Of a stretch of 52,067 nt of DNA, positions 2,197 through 39,975 are shown in pieces; position 1 is the first letter of the stretch; each line of letters starts with the position of its first letter. The DNA is from a virus. A program made the translations under genes and the position numbers. The DNA lies in IMG/VR virus record IMGVR_UViG_3300006108_000019, positions 1 to 52,067 of that record; one strand, 5' to 3'. Below the pieces are notes generated by a model. It saw only the letters and a list, made by a program, of their open reading frames with translations, was not told the DNA's origin and did not search any database.

Positions 2197-2449
2197 TTAT
2201 TTTTTCCTTAAATTCTCTTATCATTAATTTTAAATGCTCCGCTTGCTTTCCATGAAGGCTTAAAAACTCATCTTTAAAGTCTTCATCAATCATTATGCTA
2301 CCATGCCCCCTTGGTTTTCCGTTATCAAAATAATTTATGACAAGGTTTTCAGCCATCGGAAATCTTATCATGGTATTGTCATAGATAAAATCTATTAGCT
2401 TATTTTCATTCCAATCATAGGGAATATTTCCAATCCACATTTTAATCAT
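2189..2449 (-). CDS. RNA-recognition-motif (RRM)-like protein, 86 aa
   Basis: The whole protein fits one RRM. Residues 4-9 MWIGNI match RNP2 (hydrophobic-aromatic-hydrophobic-Gly-Asn-hydrophobic). Then comes a helix NENKLIDFIYDN, a second strand LVINYFDNGKPRG, RNP1-like RGHGSIMI, helix EDFKDEFLSLHGK and last strand LKLMIREF, in the canonical beta-alpha-beta-beta-alpha-beta order. Two RNP1 aromatics are replaced (His, Ser/Ile). A role binding phage or host RNA is inference. RRMs are common in eukaryotes and cyanobacteria but unusual as stand-alone phage genes. Confidence 0.7.
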   Translation of the reverse strand: MIKMWIGNIPYDWNENKLIDFIYDNTMIRFPMAENLVINYFDNGKPRGHGSIMIDEDFKDEFLSLHGKQAEHLKLMIREFKEKIND

Positions 2450-2679
2450 TTTATTACCTCATTTAGTTTAACTTCAACGTTTGTAACCATTAAATCAATC
2501 TGTCGATTATATTCGTCTGCTACTTCGTTTATGGTTTTATTTTCAAAGTTTGCAACCCAAATAAAAGGCTGCTCTAAACACGGTGTATTCACGCAAAGTC
2601 TTGTCAAGTCGCCATCTTTGATTATGGTAAAATCAGGATGAAGACATTGACCGAATACGTTTATAAATTTAACTTGCAT
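2446..2679 (-). CDS. Unknown small protein, 77 aa
   Basis: Starts MQVKFINVFGQ and overlaps its neighbours on both sides (ATGA type). Mixed alpha/beta character with a helical C-terminal half (INEVADEYNRQIDLMV). No family recognised; likely an early gene co-translated with the RRM-like protein. Confidence 0.6.
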   Translation of the reverse strand: MQVKFINVFGQCLHPDFTIIKDGDLTRLCVNTPCLEQPFIWVANFENKTINEVADEYNRQIDLMVTNVEVKLNEVIK

Positions 2680-3118
2680 CGTTATCTCCTTTATTGATCA
2701 TTTCTTCATGCCCTAGTGTTGGAGTTAATCTCATAAACTCTAGCACAAATTCTTTGTATTTACTCAAAGGCAATTTAAGAATAATTTCCTTTGTTTGCTT
2801 GATACCTTCTTTTGACCGCACCACAAATCCTTGAATAAAAGCATTGACTCCTTCGCCAGATTCCTCATCAATTAATTTATATTTAACGGCTTTAATATGG
2901 CTTCCTTTAACGTATATTGTAAAATAAGCCATGTCTTCCTCTCTGTCTCGCATCGCTAAATAATATTTACCTTTTGCCTCATGAGATGTCAACCATTTCC
3001 CAAAGCTCGTAATGTCACTATGCTGAATATAATTTTTTTTCTCTTCTTCATCAAAATAATTATATTGATAGCTATAATTTAGTATATATTTCATAATGGC
3101 TTTTCGATTAATATGCAT
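2669..3118 (-). CDS. Unknown early protein, 149 aa
   Basis: MHINRKAIMKYIL start chosen because a GGGG ribosome site precedes it; Met9 is a possible alternative. Contains FTIYVKGSHIKAVKYKLID and a helical end YKEFVLEFMRLTP. Soluble, no recognised motif. Overlaps the downstream gene by 11 nt. Confidence 0.65.
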   Translation of the reverse strand: MHINRKAIMKYILNYSYQYNYFDEEEKKNYIQHSDITSFGKWLTSHEAKGKYYLAMRDREEDMAYFTIYVKGSHIKAVKYKLIDEESGEGVNAFIQGFVVRSKEGIKQTKEIILKLPLSKYKEFVLEFMRLTPTLGHEEMINKGDNDAS

Positions 3119-3121
3119 TAT

Positions 3122-3280
3122 TTACCCCGCATTTATTATCTGTCTACAAACTTCGATTAACCTCTCGGCATAAGGTTTTTCTTCATTGTTTAAGCCATCA
3201 AGCCCGTCTACAACAAGGATCCTTTTACATTGCTCAAGATCTAAAAGGGCGTTTCTAAAAGCGCAATATGTCATGTTCAT
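3122..3280 (-). CDS. Unknown small protein, 52 aa
   Basis: Frame MNMTYCAFRNALLDLEQCKR, then ILVVDGLDGLNNEEKPYAER. The ATG overlaps the TGA of the gene upstream (ATGA) and the stop lies 4 nt before the next ATG. Codon use matches the operon. No family recognised. Confidence 0.6.
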   Translation of the reverse strand: MNMTYCAFRNALLDLEQCKRILVVDGLDGLNNEEKPYAERLIEVCRQIINAG

Positions 3281-3498
3281 GCCGCATCCTCCATTGCAAA
3301 CTCTTCATCTTGGCTTAATATTGTAATTCCTTCTTCTTTAAGGTCTTTATAGTATTGTTGCAAATCTTGTTCGTACTGTTCCGAGTTTAAATATATGTCA
3401 AGAGCATAATATTCACACCACGATTCAAACGCATCGTCTAACGCGCCTGATTTCTCAAACAATCTTTGAGCCTGCGATGTTGTTAATGTTTTATTCAT
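3277..3498 (-). CDS. Unknown acidic protein, 73 aa
   Basis: MNKTLTTSQAQRLFEKSG start; rich in Glu/Asp/Tyr (EQYEQDLQQYYKDLKEE), predicted all-helical. Overlaps genes on both sides. The strong negative charge is typical of early phage host-interaction or DNA-mimic proteins, but nothing specific is recognised. Confidence 0.6.
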   Translation of the reverse strand: MNKTLTTSQAQRLFEKSGALDDAFESWCEYYALDIYLNSEQYEQDLQQYYKDLKEEGITILSQDEEFAMEDAA

Positions 3499-23737: not shown

Positions 23738-25177
23738 ATGAGTGAAAATTTAACTGCTGATTACGGTCAGCCTTGGATTAAGAATCCAAAAACATATTTT
23801 GAATCTATTGCCTCACCAGAAATGCAAGCTAAAGTTAAGCGCGCAAAAAATAATGGTATGGCTGTAGATTTTCCAAGTTCAATTGATGAATTTCTTGATG
23901 AAAGAAAAGACGCAAAGATTAATAAAATTGCCTCTGTAATTAAAGATGCTTTTAGCAATCCAGCAATTTCTAGTCAAAAAGAATTTATTGCTTCAAAAAT
24001 TAACCATGCTGTTGAGTTGCTTAGAAATAGCTCTGAAGCATCGGCGCATGATTTTGTTGCAAAATTTAATACAATTTATGGTGAAGATGCTTCGGTGAAA
24101 ACAAATGCGATTGCTCAAGATTTGGGCGGATCGGTATTGCCTAATCAGCTAGAGTTCTTTTTACCTTATTTCATTACGCAACCAATGCGTGCGGCAGCAT
24201 ATCCATTCCTTCCCACTATCGGTGTAGGCGGATTGCAATTTAATCAATTTAAATTGATGTCTTACTTGCCTGGCGATTTGCAATGGTACGCTACTGATGA
24301 ATTAAATCAATTCACAGACAACATTGAGGTTAGCGCAAATAATTCTGTTGCAAATATCTATCAATTGAAAAAAGGTATTAATATTACTTATTTAGAGTCA
24401 GCATATTTATTAGAACAAAATAAAATTGCTAAATATCCTAATAGCATTGCTCCATTCAACCCGACCTCTGGTTTTGCGGCTGAATTGGCGGCTCGCATGA
24501 AATATTTAATGATTTCAAATGAGTTGTTGTTAGACAGTGTTGCAACTATTGGTAGTACATTGCCAACAGGGCAAGAAAACGGATTTTTAACAAATATTGT
24601 TACGACCACTCAAATTCCTACGGTAACTCCTGCGGTTTCTGGTGATTGGGATACTTTAAATGTTATTCAACAGTATCAAGTGTTGGCAAATCTTTCTAAT
24701 ACCGTTGGTCGTCAATCCTTCGGCTCTATGAACGGAGCAACATTATTTGTTGACTTGTACACTTTCTATGGATTCATTGAAAAGATGGGGCCATCTCCAA
24801 GCAACGCAACGTTAATGAACTTGTTGCAAACGTCTGGTGTATTTACTGCAATATTCCCTGTGGCAAATTGGTCTGAGGCTTTCCCTGGTCAAGCTACTTT
24901 TATTGTTGCAAACAATACAAACCAAGTTTGGGCTAACAACATTCCTTTTGCAATGGGAACTCCTCCAGATTTCCATCCAATTGTAAATGGTCAAGGCATT
25001 ACAATTCCTTGCTTGTCTCGTTTCTCTGGTGTTCAAATTAACCAACAAAACGGGCTTGGAAGATTAGTGTCTACATTAAGCTCTGACTCTGTTGCAATGA
25101 GAACTCAATGGGCAAAAGATGCAAAAACTGGTCTGGCAGTTAAAAAACCTGCTGGAAGACCAAGAAAAGCAGCTTAA
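23738..25177 (+). CDS. Major capsid protein, DUF2184-like, 479 aa
   Basis: A helical ~130-residue N-terminal part precedes LGGSVLPNQLEFFLPYFITQ, PMRAAAYPFLPTIGVGG, LKKGINITYLESAYLLEQNK and a C-terminal GITIPCLSRFSGVQINQQNG. These blocks and the neighbours (DUF1073 portal, DUF2213 protease) identify the HK97-fold capsid protein of this group. Ends with a basic tail KKPAGRPRKAA. The N-terminal part may be a delta domain removed by the protease. Confidence 0.85.
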   Translation: MSENLTADYGQPWIKNPKTYFESIASPEMQAKVKRAKNNGMAVDFPSSIDEFLDERKDAKINKIASVIKDAFSNPAISSQKEFIASKINHAVELLRNSSEASAHDFVAKFNTIYGEDASVKTNAIAQDLGGSVLPNQLEFFLPYFITQPMRAAAYPFLPTIGVGGLQFNQFKLMSYLPGDLQWYATDELNQFTDNIEVSANNSVANIYQLKKGINITYLESAYLLEQNKIAKYPNSIAPFNPTSGFAAELAARMKYLMISNELLLDSVATIGSTLPTGQENGFLTNIVTTTQIPTVTPAVSGDWDTLNVIQQYQVLANLSNTVGRQSFGSMNGATLFVDLYTFYGFIEKMGPSPSNATLMNLLQTSGVFTAIFPVANWSEAFPGQATFIVANNTNQVWANNIPFAMGTPPDFHPIVNGQGITIPCLSRFSGVQINQQNGLGRLVSTLSSDSVAMRTQWAKDAKTGLAVKKPAGRPRKAA

Positions 25178-25209: not shown

Positions 25210-25692
25210 ATGTCATATAATCCGACTATTGCGAATCCCGCCAACTATGCTACCTATACAGATGCATTATCATTGCTTCCTTCTTTGGCTAATTTAGTTA
25301 CTATAGAAGGGGTTTTCGTTGGCGAAGGCCTTTATAATTTTGTTAGTAATTTTATGGTTCAGCCACAACTCCCTAAATCAAGGTGGGCTAGGCTAAATCC
25401 ATGTCCTCTTGGCGTTCTTTCTTTATATTTAACACTCCATTATTTTACATTAAGTATTAGAACAACATTGAATCCGTTGTTCGATCCAAATGACGCGGAA
25501 GCTACATCAGGCAGTATTAATGAAATATTAGCAGAGGATTTTAAAGTTAGATATTCAGAGGATAAAGTTGCAAATTCATTACAATCAAGCTATTTTCAAA
25601 CCGATTACGGAAGAACTTATTGGTCAATATTGTATCCATTGAATTTAGCAATTGGCATTGGTGGACAAGGTGTTCCTTTCCAGAGTATTTAA
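25210..25692 (+). CDS. Probable head-tail connector, 160 aa
   Basis: MSYNPTIANPANYATYTDAL, LYLTLHYFTLSIRTTLNP and TDYGRTYWSILYPLNLAIG. Its slot right after the capsid gene and size fit the DUF4054-type adaptor, but sequence evidence is thin. Confidence 0.55.
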   Translation: MSYNPTIANPANYATYTDALSLLPSLANLVTIEGVFVGEGLYNFVSNFMVQPQLPKSRWARLNPCPLGVLSLYLTLHYFTLSIRTTLNPLFDPNDAEATSGSINEILAEDFKVRYSEDKVANSLQSSYFQTDYGRTYWSILYPLNLAIGIGGQGVPFQSI

Positions 25693-25693
25693 T

Positions 25694-26209
25694 ATGCTTA
25701 AATTATCTATTGATATTAAAAAATTAGAGTCAACTTTAAAAAACTCAAAAACATTTAAGATGCTAAAAGAGTTAGATAAAAAGAAAGTTGAAATAGGTTT
25801 TTTTTCAGACGTTCAATTACCTGTTTCTCAAACTGGTAAAAAGTTTGCTGCATTAATGGGTTATGCTGAGGACTCTATTGGGCCTAATGCCGCTCAATTA
25901 GCGGCATGGATGAATTACGGAACATATAATTCTCATGGCTATCATACTCCCGCAAGACCATTTTTTGATTACGCAACTCAAGAAATAAAAGATAATTTAT
26001 CATCAATTGTTTCAACCGTTAAAATAACGGAAAAATTTTATGATTCGTTTGGAAATTATGCAGTAAAAATAATACACGAAACTATTAATGATAGTTCTAA
26101 ATATGAAGCTAACGCTCCAATCACTATTGAATTAAAGGGGAGCGATAAGCCATTAATTGATGAGGGAAATTTAATTTCATCTGTGGAGGCGAGAGTAGTT
26201 AATGGCTAA
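25694..26209 (+). CDS. Neck/tail-completion protein, 171 aa
   Basis: KKKVEIGFFSDVQLPVSQTG, AAQLAAWMNYGTYNSHG and TPARPFFDYATQE match the pattern VxIGFF-x-AAxxEFGT-x-PxRPFF of virion-morphogenesis neck proteins (HK97 gp10-like fold). Starts just after the previous stop. Confidence 0.7.
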   Translation: MLKLSIDIKKLESTLKNSKTFKMLKELDKKKVEIGFFSDVQLPVSQTGKKFAALMGYAEDSIGPNAAQLAAWMNYGTYNSHGYHTPARPFFDYATQEIKDNLSSIVSTVKITEKFYDSFGNYAVKIIHETINDSSKYEANAPITIELKGSDKPLIDEGNLISSVEARVVNG

Positions 26210-26813
26210 TTTTGGTGCTGGTTATTTTAATGCGTTAAATGTTGCCGTTAATAAGATGGGCGTTCCATATATTGCTCAATTCTCTACTGTTCAGCAAAAC
26301 ATCATGGGTCAATTGCAAACATTAAGTCCTAATTTTTCAATTAGTGGAATAACATTATCTAATGGCATTGCCATAGCAACATCATTGATGCCAAATATAT
26401 TTCAAGCGGGTCAAGTAACAACCATTTCAGGCGCGGACCAAGACGCATATAACGGAACTTTTTTAATATTTTTCACCCCCGACCCCTATACGTTTTGGTT
26501 TAGGGTTTCAGGCTCCCCAGACAGTCCTGCAACTGGGACAATAACCGCAACATATTCAGCAAAATTTAATGGGATAATTCAAAACAGAAGAAAAAAAGAA
26601 ATTGAATTAACGGCAGATTTTTCACCAATAAAACAAATAATTCATCTTCAAACCTCTTATCATTTTGATGAGTTTAGCACATCGCCCGATCAAAATATAA
26701 AAGTAAGAATATTAATTTCATATCTTGGCAAACCGTATCAAATTATGAATAAAAAACTTGTCGCAAACTCCGTGTACGAATATAATTTGGAGCTATACAA
26801 TGGAACACCCTAA
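26202..26813 (+). CDS. Neck protein carrying an Ig-like module, 203 aa
   Basis: Residues about 55-117 (QVTTISGADQDAYNGTF, then WFRVSGSPDSPATGTITATY) form a module that recurs twice in the sheath. Flanking parts look like a tail-completion protein (FNGIIQNRRKKEIELTADFS). The module appears inserted into it. Confidence 0.65.
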   Translation: MANFGAGYFNALNVAVNKMGVPYIAQFSTVQQNIMGQLQTLSPNFSISGITLSNGIAIATSLMPNIFQAGQVTTISGADQDAYNGTFLIFFTPDPYTFWFRVSGSPDSPATGTITATYSAKFNGIIQNRRKKEIELTADFSPIKQIIHLQTSYHFDEFSTSPDQNIKVRILISYLGKPYQIMNKKLVANSVYEYNLELYNGTP

Positions 26814-27426
26814 AAGAATTGTTACAGCACCCAAAAACACACCCACAGAAGCGGTTAGAATTACCGCTATACGTGATTATTTAATATCATCATTTTTAGG
26901 AAATGATTTTGGATTTATAGTGAGAGCTGATAATTCTCATGTAAAATTTTCAAACCCACAACAAATCCCCGACAATAATGCGCTTATTCAAATAACGCCC
27001 TACGCGCCAAACACTTATAAATTTATGAAGGTTAATAGTTATGCCCCTTCCAGCAATGGTGATGGAACATATACTATTACCGCTTACATCTCAAAATTAG
27101 CTCGATATAATATTGATTGTATCGCAACAAACTATTTAAGTGAACAAGTTTTAGAATTGGCATCAATATATTTAGATATGTCAGGAAATACATTCGCGCC
27201 GTATTCCATGGGATACAATGCTCGCAATACCATATTAGATTTATCGAGCACAAAAGAAAGCCAATCTTTTATCGCAACTCGACATAGAATGGTTGCTTTA
27301 TTTCAACAAAATGATACAATTAATATTGTAAGCAATTCCCCTGAAGTTAGTGAGACTACTGTAATACTTTCGTGGAATGAATTAGGAACAACAGAGGTAA
27401 TAGATAATGACACTATCACTCGCTAA
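26800..27426 (+). CDS. Neck/tail terminator-like protein, 208 aa
   Basis: MEHPKRIVTAPKNTPTEAVR, AIRDYLISSFLGNDFGFIVR and MVALFQQNDTINIVSNSPEV. The slot before the sheath and the content resemble LIC_12616-type tail terminators. TTGGAG lies before this ATG. Overlaps both neighbours. Confidence 0.6.
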   Translation: MEHPKRIVTAPKNTPTEAVRITAIRDYLISSFLGNDFGFIVRADNSHVKFSNPQQIPDNNALIQITPYAPNTYKFMKVNSYAPSSNGDGTYTITAYISKLARYNIDCIATNYLSEQVLELASIYLDMSGNTFAPYSMGYNARNTILDLSSTKESQSFIATRHRMVALFQQNDTINIVSNSPEVSETTVILSWNELGTTEVIDNDTITR

Positions 27427-29059
27427 TCAGGTCGTAACTGAATTAACGCTAACATCGCCAACGGCGAGCTCTAACGCCATTGGGAATGCCGCAATGGTTA
27501 CAATCTCCCCGTTGCCTGGAAGCAACCCCTTGTGGACTTCATTTTCAGATTTTACTACTTTCTCAGCTTATTTTACTGAAGAAGATTATCCTGATGACTA
27601 CGGTTTTGGATTAGCATTTTTTTCAAACAATGGTGGCGTTGGATTGCTCTATGTTATTAATTGTACTCAACCATCCTCCGCAGAATCCACAAACGTTTCC
27701 ACAGCCATCTTGAATGCTCAAACTCAAATTTGGGGGATTGGCCAAAGTTTTTTTGGTGTTGGATTTTCTACTGGATTTAATACCCAAACTTATGATGCGA
27801 CTGTTTATGATATTTCATCATTAACTTCCTCTCCATACACTTTAGATATACTTAATTTGACCTCTGTTGGCACAACGGCAACAGCAACGGTTGCATCTAC
27901 CACAGGATTAATTAATGGTCAAACCTTCACTATAAGTGGAGCAGATCAAGCTCCTTATAATGTTACAAATGCTTTAATTACCGTTCTGAATGGAACACAA
28001 TTTACATATACGTTTTCCGGCGATATTACGTCTCCTGCAACAGGTCTTATTACCGCTACAAATACCGCTCCTTTGGCTACGGCTACCGTAGCTTCTACAG
28101 CAGGGTTGGCAACAGGAAGCAAAGTAACAATTACTGGAGCGAGCCAAGCTTCTTATAATGTAATAGACATAGCAATTACTGTAATTAGCCCCACTCAATT
28201 TACTTATTTATTTACTGGAGACAATACAAGCCCAGCAACAGGAACAATTATTGCTACAAACGTCACGGTTGACTCTAATAATATTTTTTATAGTGCAACA
28301 CAATTAACGGGTGAATTAGAGGCTTTAGCCGCTGCGCTTCCCGGTATTAATGTTTATATGGATGTTATTGGTCGCTCATACTCTCCTGATTTTTTAAATT
28401 CTAATTTTTTAACTTACCCCCCTTTTGCGTCTCAAAAGACTCAATTATCTAAATATTTATCAGTTTATTTTGAATGTGTTCCTATTAATTCTGGCGCACA
28501 ACAATATGGTGATCATGACGCAGCAATTCTGGGTTATGGGTGCACATTCTCAAAAGTTAATGTCAATGGACAAACATTTAATGGAATAACACTTTCAGGA
28601 GTATTTCCAATTACATCTGGAGATACAGATATTTATGGGCAAACATATACGGTGTTTGGGATTATGCAGACTTTCACAAACGCCCAGTTAAATTGTTATT
28701 ACACATACAACCAAGATACTCAATTAAATTGGGCATGGTTAGCCGCGACAGGAGCATCTGGTCCAGCAAATATTTCATTAAGCTCAACCTATTTAAGATT
28801 ATTGATTGTTCAAGATTGTAATAATTTTATGAAAAACAATGTTCTAAACCAACCTTATAGTCATAATACGGGGGCGGTTGGACGTGCAGGGCTTGAAAAT
28901 ATATTTAAAAGTTATTCTGCTATTCAAAGCTATATTATTACAGATCCAATTATTGTTACTCCAGCTCCAGTGCCAGCAACATTAACTTGGTCGGTTGCAT
29001 TAATTATTAACGGCATTGTTTATAATGTAAACATTGGCGGAACAATTACAGAAAGTTAG
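27407..29059 (+). CDS. Contractile tail sheath, DUF3383-like, 550 aa, with two Ig-like inserts
   Basis: N-terminal LANQVVTELTLTSPTASS and FSDFTTFSAYFTEEDYPDDY, with AYYFG-type sheath features, and C-terminal SSTYLRLLIVQDCNNFMKNN. Its place before the tube identifies the sheath. Two tandem ~62-residue modules (nt about 27875-28060 and 28071-28260; FTISGADQAPYNV, VTITGASQASYNV) interrupt it and should decorate the tail exterior. Confidence 0.82.
   Translation: MTLSLANQVVTELTLTSPTASSNAIGNAAMVTISPLPGSNPLWTSFSDFTTFSAYFTEEDYPDDYGFGLAFFSNNGGVGLLYVINCTQPSSAESTNVSTAILNAQTQIWGIGQSFFGVGFSTGFNTQTYDATVYDISSLTSSPYTLDILNLTSVGTTATATVASTTGLINGQTFTISGADQAPYNVTNALITVLNGTQFTYTFSGDITSPATGLITATNTAPLATATVASTAGLATGSKVTITGASQASYNVIDIAITVISPTQFTYLFTGDNTSPATGTIIATNVTVDSNNIFYSATQLTGELEALAAALPGINVYMDVIGRSYSPDFLNSNFLTYPPFASQKTQLSKYLSVYFECVPINSGAQQYGDHDAAILGYGCTFSKVNVNGQTFNGITLSGVFPITSGDTDIYGQTYTVFGIMQTFTNAQLNCYYTYNQDTQLNWAWLAATGASGPANISLSSTYLRLLIVQDCNNFMKNNVLNQPYSHNTGAVGRAGLENIFKSYSAIQSYIITDPIIVTPAPVPATLTWSVALIINGIVYNVNIGGTITES
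27875..28260 (+). repeat. Tandem Ig-like module in sheath gene
   Basis: Two in-frame copies of ATATVAST-x-GL...G-x-(F/V)TI(S/T)GA-x-QAxYNV...FTY-x-F(S/T)GD-x-TSPATG-x-I-x-AT. A third, diverged copy lies in the neck gene at about 26365-26550. Confidence 0.8.
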
Positions 29060-29070
29060 GAGACTAAATA

Positions 29071-29586
29071 ATGTCATACACACAAGTTCAAAATCCATCA
29101 GGTATAGTCCTTAACATTTCCGGCATACCTATTACAGATTTCGACCCAGAAGCTGGTATCGTATTGGACGACACTGTTCGCTCAATGCTTGCGCTTGGAA
29201 CAACAGCCACCCAACCAACATTTGCTGGCACTGTAAAAACAACTATTTCGTTTTCATTAATGTCATGGTCTCCTCAATCGGGATATTTAAGTGCATTATT
29301 GCAGGCATTGCAAGATTTAAGCGGAGTATTACCATCGGTATTATCATCCATTCCCGGCGTTACCGCGGCTAGTGTTTTTCAAACGCCATTTTTTACACTT
29401 GGCTTTAAAAATAACCCCAGTTTTTTGGTTCTTTCAGGCACATATACTATTCAGAAACAATTTAGTAATTTTAAAATCCCCACCGGCGCGGAAAACACTC
29501 CTCCACGCGAATGGGTTTTTGAAATACAACAAGCCATTCCTTCGTTGCTTGGCGCTACTGGCTCTAATTATGGCTCAGGATCATAA
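29071..29586 (+). CDS. Tail tube protein, DUF3277-like, 171 aa
   Basis: MSYTQVQNPSGIVLNISGIP, ITDFDPEAGIVLDDTVRSML, FSLMSWSPQSGYLSALLQAL and NFKIPTGAENTPPREWVFEI. Size, beta-rich content and position after the sheath fit the inner tube. Confidence 0.8.
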   Translation: MSYTQVQNPSGIVLNISGIPITDFDPEAGIVLDDTVRSMLALGTTATQPTFAGTVKTTISFSLMSWSPQSGYLSALLQALQDLSGVLPSVLSSIPGVTAASVFQTPFFTLGFKNNPSFLVLSGTYTIQKQFSNFKIPTGAENTPPREWVFEIQQAIPSLLGATGSNYGSGS

Positions 29587-34031: not shown

Positions 34032-34381
34032 TAGATTTTTTAACATCGCAAGGGTTTTATGTGTATAACAATACAACCAATGATTTTAAAATTATTGATA
34101 ACGATCAAGAAATTCTTCAGAGAATGACAAACTCTATTACCGTAGAGTCTTCTCAATGGAAAATATATCCAGAAGCAGGGCTTCCTTGGAAAGAACTTCA
34201 ATCAAAAAGAGCATCTTTTAATACTGTTCAAAATACGGTGACAGCGCAATTAAAAAAAGACCAAAACTATACAAAGATAAAGTCTATAAAAAGGTATTAT
34301 GAAAATGGAGTTTTTTCAATGAATATAAATATTGTTATTAATAATACAGATTACAATATAAATGCGAGCACCCTATTATGA
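34028..34381 (+). CDS. Baseplate wedge protein (gp25/gpW-like), 117 aa
   Basis: NTTNDFKIIDNDQEILQRMT, WKIYPEAGLPWKELQSKRAS and YYENGVFSMNINIVINN. Length and order (spike, gp25-like, J-like) are canonical. Confidence 0.72.
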   Translation: MIDFLTSQGFYVYNNTTNDFKIIDNDQEILQRMTNSITVESSQWKIYPEAGLPWKELQSKRASFNTVQNTVTAQLKKDQNYTKIKSIKRYYENGVFSMNINIVINNTDYNINASTLL

Positions 34382-35580
34382 TAAGTTATCCAAAGTTACT
34401 ACAACAAATTCAAGATATATTTAAAACAACTATTTCCGAGGATATTGATTTTACTTCAACTTCTAGCGCTTCATTTTTATGTGGTTCTATTGCTGAATGC
34501 GCTTTTTTAATACAGCAACAACAAAATATATTTCAAAACACTTGGAACGTTAATACTGTTTCTGGCGCAGCGCAAGATATGAATACTGGCTGGTTATTTA
34601 ATCTCCCTAGAGTTTGTCAAAATATTAAATTTACAGCAACTCTATTTAATAATGGATCTGGAAGCACAATAAATATAACAACATCAGATTTGTTTACCTA
34701 TACAAACTCAAATGGAGTTTATAATTTTACAGTTACACAAAATGTTGCTATTGCAAACAACGCAACTGAAAATGCTGTAATGATTTTTGTTGGCATTAAT
34801 TATACTAATTTACCAATAATTCCATCAGGAACTTTGTTCTTCAATGCTAATAACCCACTTTTACAGTGCACTTCAACCGAGGAATTTGACCCATCCTTCG
34901 AGTCTGACGAAGAATATAGAATAAAACAAGAGACTATTTTTGACAGAGGACTTTATGGAATGCCGTTGGCAATTAAATATGCCCTTGAATATAGCTTGTA
35001 TGTTAATAAGTGCGAGGTTTATTTTGGAAACATAGTTAATGGGCCATACAATATAGATGGAAGTGCTGGAACGTACTCACTTCCTTATGGGCAAATATTG
35101 GTTCTGGCATCAGGAGATTATATTGGAGTTGGCAAAGTTTTAGCCGTGCAAAATCAAGTGGCTAACTTAATATTAGGCGCAATAGATCCATTGAACATAA
35201 CTTATGTAGCAGATGATTTTGAAAATCAAGTTAATACTACGGCGACATCACCAAACGGACAGCCATGGGATATAACTTATTACACATCAATACCAAACAA
35301 TACTTCTATTGAAATAACTTTTAGTACCCAAGAAATTCCACAGTATTCAAGTAGTGATGTTGAAAACCTAACCGCATTAATACAAGCTTATGTTGATGGA
35401 ATAAGGATTGGCTATCCAATCTATACAGGTCAAATTTCAACGATATTTGCAAATTATAATCCATCAATAAATGCCCCTATAATTTCTATCGTAATTAATT
35501 CTGTTGAAGTCTCTGATTTATTTACACAAGACCCAGACCAAGAGTTTATTTTTGAATCACTAAGCTTGGTATATGAATAA
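34378..35580 (+). CDS. Baseplate J-like wedge protein, 400 aa
   Basis: AAQDMNTGWLFNLPRVCQNI, ESDEEYRIKQETIFDRGLYG, MPLAIKYALEYSLYVNKCEV and LIQAYVDGIRIGYPIYTGQI are the conserved blocks of the J/gp6 family. ATGA coupling on both sides. Confidence 0.85.
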   Translation: MISYPKLLQQIQDIFKTTISEDIDFTSTSSASFLCGSIAECAFLIQQQQNIFQNTWNVNTVSGAAQDMNTGWLFNLPRVCQNIKFTATLFNNGSGSTINITTSDLFTYTNSNGVYNFTVTQNVAIANNATENAVMIFVGINYTNLPIIPSGTLFFNANNPLLQCTSTEEFDPSFESDEEYRIKQETIFDRGLYGMPLAIKYALEYSLYVNKCEVYFGNIVNGPYNIDGSAGTYSLPYGQILVLASGDYIGVGKVLAVQNQVANLILGAIDPLNITYVADDFENQVNTTATSPNGQPWDITYYTSIPNNTSIEITFSTQEIPQYSSSDVENLTALIQAYVDGIRIGYPIYTGQISTIFANYNPSINAPIISIVINSVEVSDLFTQDPDQEFIFESLSLVYE

Positions 35581-38070: not shown

Positions 38071-39975
38071 ATGAATGATGAAAATACAGAATTATATGAT
38101 TTACAGGAAAAAAGATTAACAAAAACTAAGGGTGGAAAAAGTTTTGTTAAGTCAGCCCCAACAAGTCGCTCAGGTGCTGGAACAGTAAATCTTAACGCAA
38201 CTATTATTGAATATCCTCAAGCAAATTTAACTGCGATTCAAGCTCTTCCTGAGCCAATGACGGCTGGAGTTTTAGCTTTTTCTATCGCGGACAATGCTTT
38301 TTATCAGTGGAATGGCTCTTCTTGGGTTGTTTCAACAATTTTAGCAAATCTTCCACAATCACAAATTACAGGTTTAGTAACGGCATTGTCTGGAAAAATG
38401 GCGCTAATATCTGCGCCAACAAACAATCACGTTTTGATAACGAATAATTCTGGTCAAGGGGTTGATTCTGGGGTTCTTTTAACGCAATTTACCCAGCAAG
38501 GCAATACATTTAATACTACAGGTAAGTTGGTGCAATTAACGAGCGATGTTTATCCTACATTGCCTATAGTAGATTCTGGAGCGACTACTGTTAATGATCC
38601 GACCACATCCTCTCCTGCGGAGCTTAACGTAGCTCTTGCCAATATTCATGCGGGCGGTGGGGCTGGAACGGTAACAAACGTTTCAGTAGCTTCAGCTAAT
38701 GGAATGGGCGGGACGGTTGCTACATCAACCACAACGCCAGACATCACATTAACCACTAGCGTAAATGGCGTTGTTAAAGGAAATGGCACGGCATTTGTGG
38801 CCGCGGTAGCAAATACCGATTATCTTCCTGTTGCATCTCCCACCTCGACTGGAACCTTGTCCGCCGAAACATATCAAGGTTCATCCAATATGAACGTAGA
38901 AAGCACTATTCGAGCAACAGGTCAAAACCCTCCTGTCTCTGGAAGCGGTTTAGAGATTGCGTGGGACGGCGCATCTTCACAAATTAGGGCATACAACAGA
39001 ACAACTCCGGGATATTTACCAGGAGCAATTGACGCAAGCACTCTGAATATTAATGCTGCATCTGGTGGTAGTATAAAGCTAGGTGGAAGCCTCGCCCTGT
39101 CAGGGGCGTTAGGGACAGGTATTTTAAAAAATACAACATCAACAGGGGAATTAAGCATTGCTAGCGCAGGCGACTTCCCCACGCTCAATCAAAATACCAC
39201 GGGTTCCGCCGCGCAAATTGGATCGAGTACGTTTGTGGCGCAAGTTGACACCTCTTCACTCACTGCGAATAGAAGCATAGCGATGGGAGATGTTGATGGG
39301 CTTGTTATTCCTCAAGCATTTGAAGCTGAGGCAGGGTATTTAGTCACTGGAATTAATATAGACTCAACCCCCCAAGTAATTGAATTTACCACAGACGGTA
39401 GCGCCACACTTGATACTGGTTCAGGTCCTGGATTGTGGCAATTGCGAGTTAACCAAGCGACAACCTCACAACTTGGAGGCTCTGCGATTGCAACTGACTC
39501 AGCAACTTTGGACGGCCAGGATGAGTCAAGTATTGTCACTCCAAATACATTAAACTCATCGGGGTGCTTATCAAATTTCAAAGCTGTTGCATGGGCTTCT
39601 GGCTTTTCAAGCGGAGTGGTAACAAATGGAGCAATAAATATTACTACTGGAGCTACGCAAGTTTTTGGCAATGGAACCTCTCCTGACGGAACTACTGGCA
39701 TAGTATTAACTCCACAAAGACAATTTGATGTTTTTGTATTGCTAAATTTAAGCTCTGCAGCGGCATCAAGTGTAAATTTTATTATCACAGGCACAAACTG
39801 CACCGTAATTACCGAGGCGCGCGGCATAGGTGCGTCCACAAATAAAGATTTGATTCTGAAGGCTACTGTTATAACGTCAAACCTATCCTCACCAACTATT
39901 ACGGTTGTCGCCAGTGGTTTGTTGGGGGGCGTTCAGATTATAAATGATTCATTTTTACATATTTTAGAACAATAG
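38071..39975 (+). CDS. Long tail fibre protein, 634 aa
   Basis: Contains the fibre-type repeat GTVTNVSVASANGMGGTVAT ... TTSVNGVVKGNGTAFVAAVA NTDYL, plus QITGLVTALSGKM. Ser/Thr/Gly-rich shaft, N-terminus basic and probably virion-bound; the C-terminal third lacks a known tip. No chaperone gene is evident. Confidence 0.78.
   Translation: MNDENTELYDLQEKRLTKTKGGKSFVKSAPTSRSGAGTVNLNATIIEYPQANLTAIQALPEPMTAGVLAFSIADNAFYQWNGSSWVVSTILANLPQSQITGLVTALSGKMALISAPTNNHVLITNNSGQGVDSGVLLTQFTQQGNTFNTTGKLVQLTSDVYPTLPIVDSGATTVNDPTTSSPAELNVALANIHAGGGAGTVTNVSVASANGMGGTVATSTTTPDITLTTSVNGVVKGNGTAFVAAVANTDYLPVASPTSTGTLSAETYQGSSNMNVESTIRATGQNPPVSGSGLEIAWDGASSQIRAYNRTTPGYLPGAIDASTLNINAASGGSIKLGGSLALSGALGTGILKNTTSTGELSIASAGDFPTLNQNTTGSAAQIGSSTFVAQVDTSSLTANRSIAMGDVDGLVIPQAFEAEAGYLVTGINIDSTPQVIEFTTDGSATLDTGSGPGLWQLRVNQATTSQLGGSAIATDSATLDGQDESSIVTPNTLNSSGCLSNFKAVAWASGFSSGVVTNGAINITTGATQVFGNGTSPDGTTGIVLTPQRQFDVFVLLNLSSAAASSVNFIITGTNCTVITEARGIGASTNKDLILKATVITSNLSSPTITVVASGLLGGVQIINDSFLHILEQ

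Follow-up and report, generated by a model that had tools for sequence, protein, structure and literature searches.

A predicted small beta-barrel of the FCCH/endosialidase type recurs in the probable neck and contractile sheath proteins of a phage

Promiscuous accessory domains of the phage particle are usually called Ig-like, and such Ig-like phage domains were described by Fraser et al. 2006, as cited in PMC9230969. They are accessory beta-domains common to unrelated virion proteins, as for example lambda gpV, T5 pb6 and SPP1 gp17.1*, and in the tail tubes of lambda and T5 they are found at the C-terminus (PMC8718954). An extra beta-domain is also present in type 2/3 contractile sheaths (PMC9230969) and in the DUF3383 sheaths of XM1, Pam3 and phi92, whose core combines an N-terminal with a C-terminal part. 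Structures have been solved for several of the DUF3383 sheaths. The additional sheath domains known so far are mostly Ig-like and, in general, accessory sheath domains are located away from the tube (PMC9230969), while the accessory domains of tail tubes point outwards (PMC8718954).

In terms of fold, the systems closest to the module described here are the FCCH (first catalytic cysteine half-) domain of ubiquitin E1 enzymes (PF16190) and the beta-barrel of phage endosialidases (PF12195), represented by EndoNF of phage K1F and by phi92. FCCH is itself an insertion, located in the E1 adenylation domain. The endosialidase barrel, which binds polysialic acid, is a component of a phage particle protein, specifically a tailspike that forms a trimer. 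In EndoNF it provides one of three polysialic-acid sites, tolerates mutation and is a hotspot of host discrimination, with residues S460, S468 and G504 named in this context (PMC12632334).

The window, as the analysed stretch of DNA is called hereafter, comprises the 52,067 bases of a virus record, and its open reading frames of at least 40 codons (n=454) were searched with a module profile made of copies from other phages only, without window sequence. Three copies of one repeat unit were recovered, all on the + strand. The first is contained in an ORF of 203 aa (26202-26813), where it spans residues 46-120 (26337..26561), while the other two stand in tandem in an ORF of 550 aa (27407-29059), namely module A at residues 147-219 (27845..28063) and module B at residues 220-287 (28064..28267). 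Among the 454 ORFs the profile matches the neck copy at E 7.4e-20, module A at E 7.2e-24 and module B at E 2.1e-21; a fourth copy was not found in them, the next-best ORF reaching E 0.17, and the best of 9080 shuffled ORFs gave E 1.3. Comparison by tblastn inside the window returned 66% identity between modules A and B (E 1e-21), 50% between the neck copy and module A (E 4e-9) and 37% between the neck copy and module B (E 1e-7), and the pair scores of 98, 87 and 190 lie far above the respective maxima of 57, 51 and 61 in 2000 shuffles per pair. The neck copy and module A are supported by the profile and by AlphaFold, module B by the profile, by its identity to A and by its position as sister of A in the module tree. 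A first-pass annotation of this DNA had proposed that the neck and sheath proteins share a module, present twice in tandem in the sheath, and the tblastn, shuffle and profile results bear this out. As for the length of about 62 residues given there, the repeat is real and the length is wrong, with the first strand of the barrel left out; the full unit measures about 73-75 residues.

The identity of the two carrier proteins is suggested by their neighbourhood, which matches that of Salmonella phage SEN34, Elizabethkingia phage EKP1 and Burkholderia phage Magia in the order Neck1, head-tail adaptor, terminator, DUF3383 sheath and tube. Specifically, a tail completion/Neck1 protein (25652..26209, +; phrog_222, E 2.9e-26) precedes the 203-aa ORF, which is followed by a probable tail terminator of 222 aa (26758..27426, +) in the same position as SEN34 gp12, a member of PF23961 (Phage_tail_terminator_9); the real start of the window terminator may be an ATG near 26800. 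The 550-aa ORF is placed between this terminator and a probable tail tube protein of 171 aa (29071..29586, +), which occupies the DUF3277 position by gene order as in EKP1 and shows a weak match to phrog_280. As for sequence, the 203-aa ORF ranks first of 25 window proteins with the adaptor profile, in a weak match (E 0.016), and is weakly matched by phrog_939 (E 0.24). The 550-aa ORF ranks first of 25 window proteins with the DUF3383 profile in hmmsearch, at a non-significant E of 0.067; it has no Pfam match, and comparison of the sheath with DUF3383 (PF11863) by hhalign gave nothing (probability 0.1). Since gene order is the basis of both identities and the sequence support is weak, the former (+ strand; core residues 1-45 and 121-203) is designated only as a probable head-completion or head-tail adaptor (neck) protein, a class that includes SPP1 gp16 and XM1 gp4, and the latter (+ strand; core residues 1-146 and 288-550) as a probable contractile tail sheath in a DUF3383-like position. 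The description of these flanks as otherwise typical domains finds no support in the sequence, as neither of them has a convincing Pfam or NCBIfam match. Matches of window proteins to the Pfam families DUF3000, STN and QSregVF_b lie below their cut-offs, at chance level.

The lineage of this phage is poorly sampled. No close relatives of its sheath, portal and terminase were found in IMG/VR, and at the limits used none of 50,697 phage records matched the sheath core. Under the same conditions, tblastn returned no match for the probable major head protein (window 23738-25177) or for the ORF (window 34378-35580) that stands where baseplate J is expected. Further downstream, after the tail-collar fibre gene, an ORF of 634 aa (window 38071-39975), with no convincing match in Pfam and PHROG, is possibly a second fibre or spike.

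To describe the fold of the module, AlphaFold models of both carriers were compared with solved structures by VIA-align. The alignments used for AlphaFold contained module rows only and the cores of both carriers stayed poor; in the sheath model pLDDT is 92-98 for module A, 52-75 for module B and below 50 for the core, and in the neck model it is 92-98 across residues 41-120. The best match of the sheath module A model is the FCCH domain of the E1 enzyme UBA6 (Z 11.3, 2.0 Å over 79 residues), and that of the neck copy model is again the FCCH of UBA6 (Z 11.7, 1.7 Å over 77-78 residues), so that E1 FCCH is the best fold match throughout, at Z 11-12 and 1.7-2.2 Å over about 78 residues; the isolated FCCH domain 2v31 scores Z 9.2-9.3. 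The phage endosialidase barrels follow at Z 8.4-10.6, with phi92 at Z 9.1 (sheath model) and 10.6 (neck model) and EndoNF at Z 8.4 and 9.9, respectively. Moreover, the same barrel fold is found in two solved neck or tube chains, neither of them a sheath and both without detectable sequence relation to the module, namely the head-to-tail chain of phage FCWL1 (9jlf_E; Z 8.7 with the sheath model, 9.0 with the neck model) and the Mystique tail tube (9n71_A; Z 7.3, sheath model only). According to these models, module A and the neck copy are predicted to be six-stranded small beta-barrels of the E1 FCCH/endosialidase fold, and module B, given its 66% identity to A, would adopt the same one.

Sequence families describe this relation in part. 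Among 62 members of the module family, 16 match E1_FCCH in Pfam and 8 match End_beta_barrel, with a best value of 8e-6. One relative (in L063) lies above the Pfam cut-off for E1_FCCH (31.5 vs 29.5 bits). For the window proteins and for module A no match to PF16190 (E1_FCCH) or PF12195 (End_beta_barrel) was reported, the curated cut-offs not being reached, and the window copies are therefore not assigned to either family. In other words, they share the fold without being filed as members, and other members of the phage family form the bridge. A PDB sequence search with the module profile gave no credible relative. Turning to the Ig fold, a Greek-key beta-sandwich, none is named among the 50 matches listed for each model, no match of the window proteins to Pfam Ig families was found, and the Ig-type families Big_1, Big_9 and Filamin each match 1 of the 62 family members, at E 0.026-0.096, that is at chance level. 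The Ig-like character assigned to the module in the first-pass annotation is thus not supported, another fold, that of E1 FCCH and the endosialidase barrels, matching clearly.

In comparison with the known systems, the module resembles the phage Ig-like domains in its probable outward position and in a proposed weak contact with glycans, but differs from them in fold and in Pfam families; in addition, the window modules are placed in loops, unlike the C-terminal domains of the lambda and T5 tubes. The window sheath would carry two tandem FCCH-type barrels instead of the mostly Ig-like extra domains. With respect to the endosialidases, the difference is one of location, as the barrel belongs there to a tailspike and here to neck and sheath proteins, whereas E1 FCCH is involved in ubiquitin chemistry, of which there is none here, where the context is that of virion proteins. 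A structurally different second module thus appears to act in the way for which Ig-like domains are known.

The distribution of the module was followed outside the window. A scan of IMG/VR gave 205 confirmed loci and a second one 198, the two overlapping, while annotated phages, mostly cyanophages, accounted for 346 records at a loose limit. In cellular genomes the module is rare: one scan of 84,980 species with a nearly identical search pattern returned 7 loci, among them several within phage-type genes, against the 205 of IMG/VR. The set of carrier proteins, made of the kept IMG/VR loci, to which six loci from Rhizobium phages and seven from genomes were added, comprises 163 proteins with 233 module copies, which fall into 36 clusters once the modules are masked. 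With the window sheath and the window adaptor the total is 38, these being BLAST clusters in which distant kin may be split; in the sample, no fewer than 38 protein clusters hence show the modular behaviour, one of them being a probable contractile sheath with a tandem pair. Carriers include Rhizobium-phage spikes of the SGNH/GDSL hydrolase type, in which the module is internal, baseplate J, head closure, head completion, SU10-type and other head-tail adaptors, tail tube, baseplate wedge and fibres. No sheath other than that of the window was recognised among the sampled carriers, part of which was covered by the family-library scans, and a sheath as divergent as that of the window would escape recognition. 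A search for FCCH in phages gave nothing relevant in the open-access literature, which does not show that the module is undescribed. The family represents a handle for the annotation of many 'hypothetical' neck, tube and baseplate proteins.

In baseplate J proteins one or two copies occupy fixed sites. In particular, the proteins L238 and L188, which share 62.6% identity over 139 aligned residues, differ by the clean presence or absence of one module, flanked by the motifs 'GVTRVFV.E' and 'G.V.VYFMRDND'. In the baseplate J cluster, two modules are found in 27 of the 50 proteins and one in the remaining 23. The module is thus a promiscuous insertion in unrelated virion proteins, which gain or lose it whole at a loop. 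The window is not the only case in which neighbouring particle genes share modules; in an IMG/VR contig (L198), each of two adjoining neck-type ORFs carries one, the first (2363-2869, 169 aa) looking like a gp6-type head-tail adaptor and the second (2200-3453) being a head-completion protein (PF05521).

The adaptor has 129 aa in SEN34 and 203 aa in the window, and the syntenic sheaths have 383 (SEN34), 381, 488 and 491 aa compared with 550 aa in the window; none of these adaptors and sheaths, whose kinship with the window proteins rests on gene order, scores significantly with the module profile. Together with the gain and loss of the module as a unit elsewhere, these relatives support the earlier proposal of an inserted module against that of an integral sheath domain. 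In the neck protein the adaptor profile picks up again directly behind the module, at window residue 116 and profile position 38, and the insertion is for this reason placed ahead of strand 2. Three lysines on the loop that joins strands 2 and 3 of XM1 gp4 line the inside of the neck channel (PMC10457771). The segment that follows the neck module in the window (26577-26627, NRRKKEIELTADFSPI) has a basic start (NRRKKE) and aligns to this lysine loop. As the XM1 gp4-like basic loop comes after the module, the latter seems to avoid the channel loop. The core of the window neck protein and that of a module-bearing head-completion protein show no local similarity.

In the sheath, the modules come after a segment aligned weakly to the DUF3383 strand 'WYGL'. 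Magia-type DUF3383 sheaths (L091 and L092, about residues 93-205) have an extra domain of another kind, about 110 aa long, which is missing from the SEN34 and window sheaths. From this weak alignment, the window modules and the Magia-type domain seem to occupy different sheath loops.

The two sheath copies are not of recent origin with respect to each other, and the recent copying put forward in the first-pass annotation is not supported. Modules A and B are sisters in the module tree (support 99/94), which indicates one acquisition followed by tandem duplication. The duplication is old, as at the 40 residues kept between A and B the same codon is used 16 times, compared with 15.5 expected from codon bias alone, third-position identity is 36% and silent sites are saturated. 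The best tree places the neck copy outside A and B by 21.9 log units, a single clade not being rejected (p-AU 0.198), and suggests that the neck copy was likely acquired separately from the sheath pair. The GC content of the modules (0.39-0.42) is slightly above that of the surroundings (0.35-0.37), and the GA..YNG and PATG.I motifs are strictly conserved in 62 sequences.

On these grounds, the working model we consider most likely, because of the placement of accessory sheath and tube domains and of the role of the EndoNF barrel, is that of an FCCH-type phage module which is carried in loops, projects outwards and makes accessory contacts of low affinity and high avidity with host glycans; we give it a probability of about 0.5. 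Over evolutionary time, the module would enter surface loops of unrelated virion proteins and leave their cores undisturbed; in the window phage, one copy would occupy a loop early in the neck protein, and the tandem pair, an old duplicate, would sit in a sheath-core loop. Each neck subunit would then expose one outward-pointing barrel and each sheath subunit two, all serving as weak multivalent contacts with glycans of the host surface, a role that this fold has in the K1F tailspike. By analogy with known sheath architecture (PMC9230969), display on the outside of the tail along its length is plausible, and glycan binding is plausible by analogy with the sialic-acid-binding barrel of EndoNF (PMC12632334), whose residues S460, S468 and G504 lie inside the stretch matched by the module models (424-508). 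A rough estimate from the probable tape measure, a product of 429 aa, gives some 100 sheath subunits and 200 barrels per tail, as orders of magnitude. Should the barrels bind glycans in the manner of K1F, the tail would be adhesive over a large part of its side, with a bearing on the search of the cell surface by tailed phages. Weighing against this model are the pLDDT below 50 of the sheath core and a DUF3383 kinship that is not significant by sequence and, for the glycan role, the fact that the top Z values among solved structures belong mostly to E1 enzymes, in which the barrel has no known glycan role. Moreover, the same sequence evidence is expected from structural cementing and from neutral carriage.

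According to the first of these alternatives, which has perhaps half the weight of the model just described, the module packs against neighbouring subunits and stiffens neck and sheath, with no contact with the host. Accessory sheath domains of phage 812 were proposed to cement discs (as cited in PMC9230969), the tail-tube ring of YSD1 is stabilised by an inserted domain (PMC8718954), and load-bearing proteins, namely connectors and those of the baseplate, often carry the module. However, it also occurs in SGNH hydrolase spikes and in fibres, where no lattice exists, and relatives may lack it at the same site, which implies that the lattice does not need it. Somewhat less probable again is a tolerated passenger, that is a small barrel that folds on its own, has its N- and C-termini near each other, does no harm in loops and has no selected function, and which would persist by recombination between short similar sequences. 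The dozens of unrelated carriers, the presence and absence within families and the retention of the fold in spite of a divergence to 30-40% identity would be expected of such an element; the strict conservation of GA..YNG and PATG.I in the presence of saturated synonymous sites speaks instead for long purifying selection on the fold, and it is costly for a major protein to keep a tandem pair. In addition, the family raises the question of the origin of the FCCH insertion of E1. A wider scenario, in which a phage-wide mobile barrel enters loops of nearly every kind of virion protein and coats contractile tails with glycan-binding barrels and the eukaryotic E1 FCCH belongs to the same lineage, maybe derived from the phage barrel, is a long shot. 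An Ig-like domain recently copied between the neck and sheath genes, as in the first-pass annotation, is very improbable in view of the fold matches, the chance-level Pfam Ig values and the saturated silent sites, even if the module is beta-rich, inserted and located in exposed virion proteins like Ig-like domains (PMC9230969). Equally improbable are segments integral and ancestral to the sheath lineage, with a secondary likeness to the neck copy: no close relative of the window sheath was found that could show presence or absence, but the syntenic sheaths (383, 381, 488 and 491 aa) are without the module, and in the tree the sister copies A and B fall within the modules of other proteins.

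Finally, the module was also observed in contexts that are not phage-like, in two large open proteins of planctomycete MAG contigs, one of Phycisphaerales with six copies (L179:2-4777) and one of Pirellulales with a single copy (L177).
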